Shown here in pieces: positions 44,074 to 48,061 of a stretch of 64,000 nt of DNA. Position 1 is the first letter of the stretch. Every line of letters starts with the position of its first letter. A program made the translations under genes and the position numbers. The DNA lies in assembly GCF_000013385.1 (NCBI RefSeq), contig NC_007760.1:2419001-2483000 (forward strand), read 5' to 3'. This DNA is from Anaeromyxobacter dehalogenans 2CP-C (lineage in GTDB: Bacteria; Myxococcota; Myxococcia; Myxococcales; Anaeromyxobacteraceae). Under the pieces are notes generated by a model, which saw only the letters and a program-made list of their open reading frames with translations, searched no databases and was not told the origin of the DNA.

Positions 44074-44658
44074 TCAGGCCGGCGGGGCCGCTGCCTCGGC
44101 GGCCTCGACCGCGGGGCCCTCCGGCGGCTCCGCCGCCACCGCCGGGACGTCGCCCTGCCCGTCCGCCGCGGGGTCACCGGCGCGCTCCGGCTCCGCGTCG
44201 CCCGCGGCGAGGGCCCGGTCGAGGTCGAGGAGGAGCACGAAGCCGCGCCCCACCTTGCCCATGCCGACGAGGTACTCCACGCTCACGCCGGTGCCGAAGG
44301 ACGGCGAGGGCTCGATCTCGTCCGGGCGAAGCGCCACCACCTCGTTGACGGCGTCGGCCAGCACGCCGAGCGTGAGGCTCCCGCCCGCCACCTCCACCTC
44401 GACCACCAGCACGCAGGTGAAGCGCCCGGGCCGGGAGGCGGACCCGCCGAACTTCACGGCCAGGTCCACCACCGGCACCACCGCCCCGCGCACGTTGAGC
44501 ACGCCGCGGACCGACGGCGGCGTCCCCGGCACGCGGGTGATCTCCTCGTGCTGCAGGATCTCCCGGACCTTCAGGATCGGGACCGCGTAGTCGATCCCGT
44601 CGATCCGGAACGAGAGGTACTGCGCCTGCTCGCCGGCCACCTCCACCGCGTCGCGCAT
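44074..44658 (-). CDS. cheW: CheW-type chemotaxis coupling protein
   Basis: The first 150 residues form a CheW domain: YLSFRIDGIDYAVPILKVREILQHEEITRVPGTPPSVRGVLNVRGAVVPVVDLAVKFG, followed by VLVVEVEVAGGSLTLGVLADAVNEVVALRPDEIEP. CheW links chemoreceptors to the histidine kinase CheA. A Pro/Ala/Glu-rich tail of about 40 residues (from about 155) is unusual. It lies 9 bp downstream of the chemoreceptor gene and is co-transcribed with it. No CheA is in the window. Confidence 0.93.
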   Translation of the reverse strand: MRDAVEVAGEQAQYLSFRIDGIDYAVPILKVREILQHEEITRVPGTPPSVRGVLNVRGAVVPVVDLAVKFGGSASRPGRFTCVLVVEVEVAGGSLTLGVLADAVNEVVALRPDEIEPSPSFGTGVSVEYLVGMGKVGRGFVLLLDLDRALAAGDAEPERAGDPAADGQGDVPAVAAEPPEGPAVEAAEAAAPPA

Positions 44659-44667
44659 GGCCGCCCC

Positions 44668-46329
44668 CTAGAACCGCTTGAACTCGCCCGCCGCGGCCGG
44701 CTTGCCGTTGCGCTGCTCGGCCTGCGGCCAGGGGCGGTCGAGCGCCGGGAGCGGCGCGGGCGCCGGCGGGCGCGGGGGGACGTAGCGCGCCGCGCTCCGC
44801 CGCTCCTCGCGGACCGTGAAGAAGCCCATGAGCTGCTGCAGGCCCTCGGCCTGCGAGGCCAGCTCCTCGGCGGTGGAGCTCAGCTCCTCGGCCGCGGTGG
44901 CGTTCCGCTGCGTGACCTGGTCCACCACCCCCATGGCCTTGCTGACCTGCGAGACGCGCTCGCTCTGCTCCTGCGACGCCGCCGCCACCTCCTGCACCAG
45001 GTCGGCCGTCTTCTGGATGGCCGGGACGAGGTCGGTGATGAGCCGGCCGCTCTCCTCGGCCACCGAGAGCGAGCTCTCGGCCAGCGTGCCGATCTCGCCC
45101 GCCGCCTTCTGCGCGCGCTCGGCGAGCTTGCGCACCTCGGTGGCGACCACCGCGAATCCCCGCCCGTGGTCGCCGGCGCGGGCCGCCTCGATGGCCGCGT
45201 TCAGGGCGAGCAGGTTGGTCTGGTAGGCGATCTCCTCGATGATCGAGATCTTCTCCGCGATGGAGCGCATCGCCGAGACCGTCTCGGTGACCGCGGTGCC
45301 GCTGCGCCCCGCGCTGGCGGCCTGCGCCTTCGCGGCGCCCTCGGTCTGGCGCGCGCTGTCGGCGTTCTGCGTGATGGAGGCGTGCATCGCCTCGAGCGAG
45401 GAGGTCGTCTCCTCGACGCTGGCCGCCTGCTCGCCGGTGCCCTGCGAGAGGGTCTGGGCGGTGGAGGAGACCTGCGACGAGGCGCCGGCCAGCGCGTCGG
45501 CGCCGGAGCGGACCTCCGAGATGACCTGCGCCAGCTTCTCGCCCATGGTCTTCATGGCGGCGAGCAGCTTGCCGAGCTCGTCCCGGCCGGTGACCTCCAC
45601 CGTGTCGCGCAGGTCGCCCGCGGCGATCCGGTCGGCGGCCTTCACCGCGCTGCCGAGCGGCAGGACGATGGTGCGCGTCACCCAGAACGAGAGCACGATG
45701 GCGAGCACCGCGGTGGAGAGCAGCACCCCCACCACCAGCACCCGGGCCGACTCGTACATGGCGTGCCCGGCCTCGGCCGCCTCCTGCATCTGCGCGCCCT
45801 GGGCCTTCGTGTAGTCGGACCAGCCGAACTCCACCGCGGTCAGCGCCGGCACGAGGTCGTCGCGCGTCACGCGCTTCGTCTCGGGCAGGTTCAGCGTGCG
45901 GGCGGTGTCGAGCGTCTTCTGGAACGTCTTGCCGAGGTGGGCGCGGCGCACCGCGAGCTCCGCCAGCACCTGCTTGGTGCGCTCGTTGTCCACCACGGTG
46001 ATGCCGCCCTCCATGGCGGCGAGCTTGTCGCCCTCCTCGTTCGCCCGCTGCGCCTCCTTGCGCAGCTCGACGATGGTCTCCATGCGGCGGAGCGCCTCGG
46101 CGGGATCGTCGGTCGAGAGCATCACGCCGACGTGGTTCGCCTGCTGCGCCGTCACGTGGAGCCCGCGGATCGCCATCTCGAGCGAGCGCAGGCGCTGCCG
46201 CGCCACCTCGTCGAGCCCCTGGTCGAGCTGGGCCAGGCGCGAGAGCGCGAAGAAGCCGACCGCCACGAACGCGGCGGTGACGAGCATGAAGGCGAAGGTG
46301 AGGCGGACGCCGATCGAGAACTTCCGCAT
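44668..46329 (-). CDS. Methyl-accepting chemotaxis protein
   Basis: The 553-residue receptor has an N-terminal membrane helix (about 7-30), a periplasmic four-helix-bundle sensor (about 30-200) rich in charged residues, a second helix ([22 protein letters not shown], about 200-222), a HAMP-like segment ([23 protein letters not shown]) and a long signalling coiled coil. The hairpin tip [49 protein letters not shown] is fully conserved. Its C-terminus ([21 protein letters not shown]) lacks the usual pentapeptide for CheR binding. It is coupled to cheW. Confidence 0.94.
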
Positions 46330-46416
46330 GGTGACCTCTGGTGAAGGAAGCGGGCGTGACGGGGGTGGACCGCCGCCCCGCCGGGAGCTCCGGCGGGACG
46401 GCGATCCGGCCGCGGG

Positions 46417-47733
46417 CTAGATCACGCCCATCGCGGCGCGGAGCTGGGGGTGGAAGATGCGCTTCGGGATGACGCCGTAGATGCCCTTCTGCCCGTTCAC
46501 CACCTGCGTCACGCGGAAGCTGACCGCGAGGCTGCAGAGGGCGTAGGCGTCGAGCCGGGTCAGGCCGGCGCGGGCCTCGAGGAAGTCGATCGCGTTCAGC
46601 AGGGCGATCCGGAACGCGATGTCGAGGTCCGGGTTGGTGCCGTGGACGATCCAGGCGTCCGGCGTCTCGTGCATCGGCCAGGCGAGCGCGACCTGCTTGT
46701 GGAGGATCACGCGGACGCGGATCTCCTTCATCGCGGTCTCCATCGCGGTGAGCGTCACCTCGCCGTCGCCCTGGAGCGCGTGCGAGTCACCGGTGAAGAT
46801 CTTGCCGCCCCGCTGGAACACCGGGACGAACAGGCGCGAGCCCTCGCCCGCCTCGCGGCAGTCCACGTTGCCGGCGTGCTGCCCCGGCGGGACCGAGCTG
46901 ATCACGCCGTAGGCGTGGCCCGGGGGCGTGGGGAACACGCCGTTCGCCGGCGCGACGCCCATGGTGCCCTGGAACGGCGCCAGCCGGAGCTGGATGCCCG
47001 GCGCGAACTCCGAGGTGTTGTTGGCGGTGTCGAGGTCGAAGTACTTCGCCTGGCCCTGCGGGAAGGCGTCCGGCAGCGCGCCGGTGCCGAGGGCGCCCGG
47101 GTTGTTGAAGCAGACCGCCCAGTCGGTGGGGCGGACGCGCAGGTACTGGATCTCGAGCACGTCGCCGGGCTCGGCGTCGCGGACGCCGACCGGGCCGATG
47201 ATCGAGTGCGGGCCCACGCCCGGGTGGGCGAGGCGGAGGCGCGCGATCTCCTCGATGGGCATGCCCGGCTGCAGGTCGTTGAGGAAGTGGCTCCAGGTGT
47301 TCGGGTACGAGACGACGTCCCCGGACTCGATCTGGACGATGTCGGGCAGGTTGGAGTCGAAGATGCCCCACTTCGTGGTCTCGTAGCTCGACTCGACCAC
47401 GTGCACCCGGCCGCCGCCCTGCTGGAACAGGCTGTAGCCGCCGTTGCCCTCCGCGCGGGCGCGAGAGAGGACCGGGGCCGCCGCCGCCAGCGCGCCGAAC
47501 AGGCCGCCGGCCTTCAGGAACCCGCGGCGGCTGCGCGCCGAGAGCAGGTGGTCCACGTCGTCGCCGCGCACCTCGTCGAGCCGGGTGAGGCGCTCGCCGC
47601 GCTGCTCGATGGCGAGGTCCACCTCGGCGCCGGACATCCCGCGCGTCGCGCTCGGCCCGCAGCAGCCGCAGATGCCGCCGTGGAAGTCGTGCGTCGCCCC
47701 GGCCTCGTGCCCCTTGTCGTGCTTCACGCTCAT
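46417..47733 (-). CDS. Tat-exported acetamidase/formamidase-family protein
   Basis: The 438-residue protein has a long leader with CGCCGPSATRG (residues 22-32), then a Tat motif SRRGFLK at 68-74 and hydrophobic GGLFGALAAAAPVLSRARA. The FmdA/AmdA-type domain follows (about 110-438): SIIGPVGVRDAEPGDVLEIQYLRVR, GNVDCREAGEGSRLFVPVFQRGGKIFTGDSHALQGDGEVTLTAMET and the family C-terminal region. Family members hydrolyse short amides such as formamide; this one is periplasmic, so the substrate is uncertain. A candidate c-di-GMP riboswitch lies in its leader. The 66-residue extension before the Tat motif is odd. Confidence 0.85.
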   Translation of the reverse strand: MSVKHDKGHEAGATHDFHGGICGCCGPSATRGMSGAEVDLAIEQRGERLTRLDEVRGDDVDHLLSARSRRGFLKAGGLFGALAAAAPVLSRARAEGNGGYSLFQQGGGRVHVVESSYETTKWGIFDSNLPDIVQIESGDVVSYPNTWSHFLNDLQPGMPIEEIARLRLAHPGVGPHSIIGPVGVRDAEPGDVLEIQYLRVRPTDWAVCFNNPGALGTGALPDAFPQGQAKYFDLDTANNTSEFAPGIQLRLAPFQGTMGVAPANGVFPTPPGHAYGVISSVPPGQHAGNVDCREAGEGSRLFVPVFQRGGKIFTGDSHALQGDGEVTLTAMETAMKEIRVRVILHKQVALAWPMHETPDAWIVHGTNPDLDIAFRIALLNAIDFLEARAGLTRLDAYALCSLAVSFRVTQVVNGQKGIYGVIPKRIFHPQLRAAMGVI

Positions 47734-47774
47734 TGACGCCTCTCCTGGCTGGTCCGTCCTCACCGCGATCGCCC

Positions 47775-47819
47775 CGTCGAAACGACGAAGCCCACGCGTG
47801 CTCAGGGCAGACGTGGGCT
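47775..47819 (-). terminator. Hairpins in the acetamidase leader, possible expression platform
   Basis: On the minus-strand RNA, bases 47819-47812 pair with 47796-47789 in an 8-bp stem, followed by UUCGUCGUUU and a second short hairpin at 47787-47775 (5-bp stem, 3-base loop). They lie between the GEMM-like aptamer and the start codon, where a switch could form a terminator or an anti-terminator. A clear U tract is absent. Confidence 0.4.
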
Positions 47820-47831
47820 GGGCCGGAGGAC

Positions 47832-47930
47832 CGGTCTCGCCACGGCGGCCACGGCCGTCCGGCGTTCACCGGACCCGCGGCTTTGCGCTTCACCCTGGGT
47901 ACGGGTGAATTGCCCTGAAGCGTGGTGCCT
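47832..47930 (-). ncRNA. Candidate c-di-GMP-I (GEMM-I) riboswitch aptamer
   Basis: On the minus strand the RNA reads CACGCUUC-AGGGCAA, then a perfect 7-bp hairpin (47909-47903 with 47895-47889), then GCGCAAAGCC (47888-47879) and a GC-rich P3-like hairpin (through about 47850). AGGGCAA and GCAAAGCC are the two most conserved single-stranded GEMM-I motifs, in the right order and separated by P2 as expected. P1-like pairing is possible (47921-47925 with 47840-47844). The position equivalent to G20 is G, favouring c-di-GMP over cGAMP. The 3-prime side is less consensus-like. Confidence 0.62.
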
Positions 47931-48061
47931 TCACCGTAAGGAACTCCCCCGACGAGGTCAAGACTCGGCGTCACAGTACCGACGGTGTACCCAAGGGGAG
48001 TCGTGAGGCGGTCTGCGCGCGGAGCACCCGCGGGCCCACATCCGCTCACCGTGAAATGCGC

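Follow-up and report, generated by a model that had tools for sequence, protein, structure and literature searches.

The locus analysed here raises the question of whether an exported amide hydrolase of Anaeromyxobacter dehalogenans 2CP-C is placed under the control of a c-di-GMP riboswitch and, if so, in which direction the ligand would act. The window (the whole 64-kb stretch of DNA that was analysed) carries on its minus strand an acetamidase/formamidase family gene, in whose leader a sequence-only reading had proposed a candidate GEMM riboswitch. Our results suggest, with a probability of about 0.8, that a GEMM-I riboswitch is located in the 5′ leader of this Tat-exported acetamidase/formamidase gene, with c-di-GMP as the proposed ligand and, with moderate confidence, an OFF mechanism. 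The RNA class is an ordinary one and the apparent target gene an unusual one for c-di-GMP, the switching itself being plausible.

Class assignment and anatomy of the leader RNA

The covariance-model check of the candidate came out positive. Indeed, when the whole window was scanned on both strands with all 4227 Rfam families (cmscan), the c-di-GMP-I model RF01051 matched over its full length (model positions 1-87; 47924-47841, minus strand) with 38.9 bits and an E-value of 4.4e-4, above the curated gathering score of 35 bits at or over which a sequence is counted as a member of the family. RF01051 was the sole family above its own gathering score in the window, where the c-di-GMP-II riboswitch model gave no match, and no other RF01051 match was found in the rest of the genome (one contig of 5,013,479 bases), even at E<=10, nor any over the cut-off in 14 control genomes. 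Altogether, the leader RNA almost certainly belongs to the c-di-GMP-I (GEMM-I) class.

On the minus strand, the aptamer reads CACGCUUC-AGGGCAA-UUCACCC-loop-GGGUGAA-GC-GCAAAGCC-GCGGGUCCGG-loop-CCGGAC-GGCCGUGGCCGCCGUG, with AGGGCAA at 47916-47910; the elements first recognized from the letters (AGGGCAA, a perfect 7-bp hairpin, GCAAAGCC and a GC-rich hairpin) are thus all present at the place given for them and in the correct order. The core A-G-G20-G-C-A, CGCAAAGCC and the 3′ GCC, which form invariant or nearly invariant columns across 20 myxobacterial GEMM RNAs, are retained, and the 3′ half is closely similar to Myxococcus-type GEMM RNAs. The 3′ strand had also been described as less consensus-like, rightly so: the U of gGcUgCC is a C here, which leaves one A-C mismatch in P3, and P1 pairs in a shifted register only (CCACG/CGUGG), the canonical register pairing poorly. 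In other myxobacterial GEMM RNAs, P1 pairing follows directly after GCCGAA (e.g., GCCATC/GAUGGC in L028).

The Rfam P2/P3 structure was further evaluated on a set of 20 aptamers, in which the three RNAs of the genus were joined by 17 GEMM RNAs of other Myxococcota. The covariation score was 0.368, compared to 0.160 +- 0.016 for shuffles (none of 500 reached it), with 85.8% of the P2/P3 cells paired and two-sided changes in 15 of the 22 pairs, while sliding the partner by 1-3 columns as a control lowered the paired cells to 28-48%. The window aptamer itself adds to this covariation, as its P2 has C-G pairs where most other aptamers have G-C.

Table 1. Positions of the leader RNA elements and neighboring features in the window, listed from upstream to downstream
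Feature	Coordinates	Strand	Remarks
Possible promoter TTGACC-N17-TACGGT (weak -10)	47933..47961	-	just 5′ of aptamer; kept in relatives; below scan threshold
P1-like 5′ strand CCACG (strand P)	47921..47925	-	in the alternative fold, pairs with terminator 3′ arm
c-di-GMP-I (GEMM-I) aptamer, model positions 1-87	47841..47924	-	cmscan 38.9 bits; covariation with myxobacterial GEMM RNAs
Ligand-selectivity base, G20 equivalent (A-G-G20-G-C)	47914	-	G, c-di-GMP type, from sequence; A in cGAMP-type GEMM-Ib
P2 hairpin UUCACCC-GUACCCA-GGGUGAA, 7 bp	47889..47909	-	the three columns that vary among relatives lie in loop
P3 helix GCCGCGGGUCCGG.../...CCGGACGGCCGUGGC with apical loop	47847..47882	-	
P1-like 3′ strand CGUGG (strand A)	47840..47844	-	
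Terminator-like hairpin AGCCCACG...CGUGGGCU	47789..47819	-	-19.7 kcal/mol; shuffles -9.5 +- 2.3
Switching strand UGCCCUGAG-CAC-GCGUGG (hairpin loop and 3′ arm)	47792..47809	-	15 bp complementary to aptamer CCACGCUUCAGGGCA
Shine-Dalgarno AGGAG	47742..47746	-	free of predicted pairing in either alternative fold of window RNA
Exported acetamidase/formamidase family gene, 438 aa, ATG at 47733	46417..47733	-	FmdA_AmdA; twin-arginine motif SRRGFLKAG
18-bp GC hairpin of very high stability, amidase-MCP intergenic stretch	46367..46407	-	no U-tract; kept in three genomes
Methyl-accepting chemotaxis protein (4HB_MCP_1, HAMP, MCPsignal)	44668..46329	-	possible second operon gene
CheW-like protein	44074..44658	-	9 bases after chemoreceptor gene

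Putative expression platform and proposed direction of control

The aptamer lies ~107 bases 5′ of the ATG, and the terminator-like hairpin between them has the full sequence AGCCCACG-UCUGCCCUGAGCA-CGCGUGGGCU, with the imperfect, U-poor tract UCGUCGUUU as its tail. The duplex between the aptamer strand CCACGCUUCAGGGCA and the switching strand reaches -25.8 kcal/mol (shuffles, -14.3 +- 2.2; 0 of 2000 reach it) and is composed of the segments CCACGC/GCGUGG and UCAGGGCA/UGCCCUGA, the aptamer 5′ strand engaged in it including the ligand-binding AGGGCA. Because the switching strand is complementary to this 5′ strand, the aptamer together with the hairpin on one side and the alternative helix on the other are mutually exclusive. 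In prefix folding, the alternative helix becomes the minimum-energy fold once ~130 bases are transcribed; for the leader with 45 coding bases, the two states lie within a few kcal/mol of each other, and the free ensemble makes no clear choice. In one relative (G001), a U-to-A change costs the alternative helix one pair, and the hairpin fold is favoured there.

From these predicted folds, the following mechanism may be proposed. Without ligand, the aptamer strand CCACGCUUCAGGGCA would pair with UGCCCUGAGCACGCGUGG, and RNA polymerase could read through the downstream hairpin opened in this way; ligand binding would engage the aptamer strand, whereupon the hairpin AGCCCACG/CGUGGGCU would form and transcription would stop. 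The amidase would then be made at low c-di-GMP, the condition of motile cells, and this would agree with the chemoreceptor-CheW pair downstream. We lean toward such a transcriptional OFF-switch, in which the ligand would let the terminator-like hairpin form, because of the aptamer/hairpin complementarity and of a Shine-Dalgarno sequence that none of the predicted states of the window RNA sequesters. Translational control as the first choice was dropped on the latter ground.

The same aptamer could also act with the opposite sign or at another level: the hairpin would then serve as anti-structure instead of a terminator, in an ON-switch or a translational switch, and the ligand would raise expression. 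We consider this a serious but rather unlikely alternative: the U-tract is weak, the strict intrinsic-terminator scan did not call the hairpin at 47789..47819, both ON- and OFF-type GEMM-I RNAs are known (PMC9262584), and the Shine-Dalgarno region is partly paired in the G001 fold (unpaired 0.44 free and 0.71 with the aptamer enforced), but no state predicted for the window RNA or for the other relative (G006) pairs the Shine-Dalgarno sequence, and the strong complementarity joins the aptamer to the hairpin and not to that sequence. Note that no promoter passed the threshold of the sigma-70 scan at the leader.

Probable ligand selectivity and cyclases

The base at 47914, which we take to be equivalent to position 20 in the numbering of the Vc2 RNA, is G in all three RNAs of the genus, and the A20 that serves as the criterion of GEMM-Ib occurs in none of them. 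In the GEMM-Ib RNA of Geobacter Gmet_0970, the A20G change turned the selectivity from cGAMP to c-di-GMP (PMC6456294). From G20 and this change of specificity, we infer that c-di-GMP rather than cGAMP is the more likely main ligand. In addition, c-di-GMP is likely made by the host, since the genome holds ten GGDEF-domain matches, several of which display all canonical motifs.

A GGDEF domain encoded outside the window (L066; G000:C1:2699994-2700455) carries the Hypr signature, Ser and GGDEY, as described in PMC6456294, and such a Hypr-type cyclase is found in 9 of 9 Anaeromyxobacter genomes, so that cGAMP may also be present in the genus. The best PDB match of L066 is 6d9m (1.6e-47, the next match being at 3.9e-28). 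This T4-lysozyme/GGDEF fusion is presumably the Hypr GacA construct from Geobacter of PMC6456294. A response of the RNA mainly to cGAMP, as this genus-wide relative of Geobacter GacA could suggest, is nevertheless doubtful, given the G20 of the aptamer, and the cyclase (9/9 genomes) and the riboswitch (3/9 genomes) have distributions that do not track each other.

Conservation of the aptamer in the genus

The aptamer was found in three of the nine genomes of the genus (the window genome, with 38.9 bits, as well as G001 and G006), the two lower scores being 36.3 and 35.6 bits. A near-identical amidase gene (99% identity) occurs in exactly these three genomes, and both are missing in the other six; G002 has a distant member of the amidase family (29%). 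The case that had been named beforehand as refuting the riboswitch, a gene kept in relatives without the leader motifs, is thus absent in the genus. The upstream MaoC-like hydratase is likewise confined to the three RNA-carrying genomes among the nine, as are close orthologues of the chemoreceptor (96-98%), and the shared restriction of amidase, hydratase and chemoreceptor orthologues indicates that the whole block is clade-specific.

Among the three leaders, variable columns represent 8% of the aptamer, 6% of the putative expression platform (n=3 close relatives, too few for covariation) and 32% of the upstream intergenic stretch, and the third codon positions of the amidase gene differ by 5-7% between pairs. 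The leader thus varies to a degree similar to that of the silent sites of this strongly conserved gene, and the placement of the changes provides the stronger argument: all 7 variable aptamer columns fall in the P2 loop or the P3 apex, including the pair closing the P3 loop, while the rest is invariant. The same placement bears on the idea of a decayed GEMM relic, in which the sequence would be kept and the switching lost. The 38.9 bits are modest relative to 63 for the best match of the phylum, P3 has its A-C mismatch and P1 is out of register, but all of the aptamer outside the apical loops and the closing pair of the P3 loop is free of substitutions in the relatives, and scores close to that of the window aptamer are found for many GEMM RNAs of myxobacteria, which makes such decay improbable. 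Finally, GC-rich sequences form hairpins readily, but a chance resemblance to a GEMM RNA is very improbable in view of an E-value computed over every Rfam family and both strands of the window, the conservation in relatives and the Myxococcus-like 3′ half.

Apparent target gene and GEMM RNAs of the Myxococcota

The amidase matches PF03069 (FmdA_AmdA) with 124 bits, for a curated cut-off of 27, and its best PDB relative is 3b9t (E 7.2e-32), also named as a Tat-signal protein. The chemoreceptor gene starts 87 bases after the amidase gene, and the strong conserved hairpin between the two (46367-46407) may end or weaken the amidase transcript, so that a single amidase-MCP-CheW operon is uncertain. 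In our literature search, we found no link between a c-di-GMP riboswitch and a formamidase, and no described c-di-GMP riboswitch in Anaeromyxobacter; Anaeromyxobacter and riboswitch are named once each alongside c-di-GMP, in an article on globin-coupled cyclases.

Elsewhere in the Myxococcota, GEMM RNAs were observed in front of genes for exported PD40/WD40-like propeller proteins of ~500 aa (L034-L039, L042, L044-L046, L049 and others), and a description of a conserved GEMM-propeller regulon of the phylum was not found in the literature. The GEMM RNAs of other Myxococcota mostly precede such PD40-type beta-propeller genes, so an amidase is an unusual target within the phylum too, in agreement with the surprise already voiced from the sequence. 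The top GEMM match of the phylum set (L023, 1501-1582; 63.2 bits) precedes a gene whose exported product weakly matches Peptidase_M11 (gametolysin). Another GEMM RNA, located upstream of a propeller-like exported protein (L048, 1501-1580, minus strand, in G156), reads AGAGCAA, thus A20, and is a candidate cGAMP-type riboswitch.

The search for GEMM RNAs near the ~40%-identical amidases in other families of the order found none, which suggests that the GEMM control of the amidase is a recent, clade-specific arrangement. The beta-propeller gene was not found in the three Anaeromyxobacter genomes with the aptamer, and no decayed GEMM was found beside the beta-propeller genes of other Anaeromyxobacter species; another genus of the family shows weak, sub-threshold c-di-GMP-I-GGC-like matches (L004 and L005). 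As a speculative scenario, which we consider unlikely as a whole, the A. dehalogenans clade might have recruited its GEMM RNA from an exported beta-propeller gene to the amidase and chemoreceptor-CheW unit, the canonical P1 being lost and the ligand-binding AGGGCA core itself taking on the switching role by invasion of the terminator loop. If true, this would mean that c-di-GMP, possibly together with cGAMP made by the Hypr cyclase of the genus, shuts down a chemotaxis-linked, amide-degrading unit. The riboswitch reading would extend the known GEMM targets to an exported amide hydrolase family and would provide one clean c-di-GMP target in Anaeromyxobacter, in a genome that combines just one GEMM RNA with cyclases of both the Hypr and the canonical type.

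Comparison with known riboswitch systems

With typical GEMM-I RNAs (RF01051), the window RNA shares the A-G-G-G-C-A-A and GCAAAGCC core, the P2/P3 architecture and the location immediately ahead of a gene, in its 5′ leader, whereas it differs by its modest score, the shifted register of P1 and a target of the amidase family, for which we found no precedent in this class. Closer at hand, Myxococcota GEMM-I RNAs (e.g., L036, L039 and L044) have a very similar 3′ half and core and also stand in leaders of genes for exported proteins, but these are mostly PD40/WD40-like propeller genes instead of an amidase gene. The Geobacter GEMM-Ib RNAs for cGAMP have the same fold, belong to the same clan and likewise occur in a genus with a Hypr GGDEF cyclase, but have A at base 20 where the window RNA has G. 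Copy numbers also differ, as the window genome has one GEMM RNA and G. sulfurreducens has 17 GEMM-I RNAs (PMC8835794). For the predicted OFF mechanism, the nearest parallel is the OFF-type Cd1 of Clostridioides difficile with its P+A / T+H scheme (PMC9262584); the window RNA would share with it the four-strand P/A/T/H logic, and in both the downstream hairpin could coexist with the ligand-bound aptamer. In contrast to Cd1, the hairpin of the window RNA has a U-poor tail, and its loop and 3′ arm would be bound by the 5′ ligand-core strand itself.
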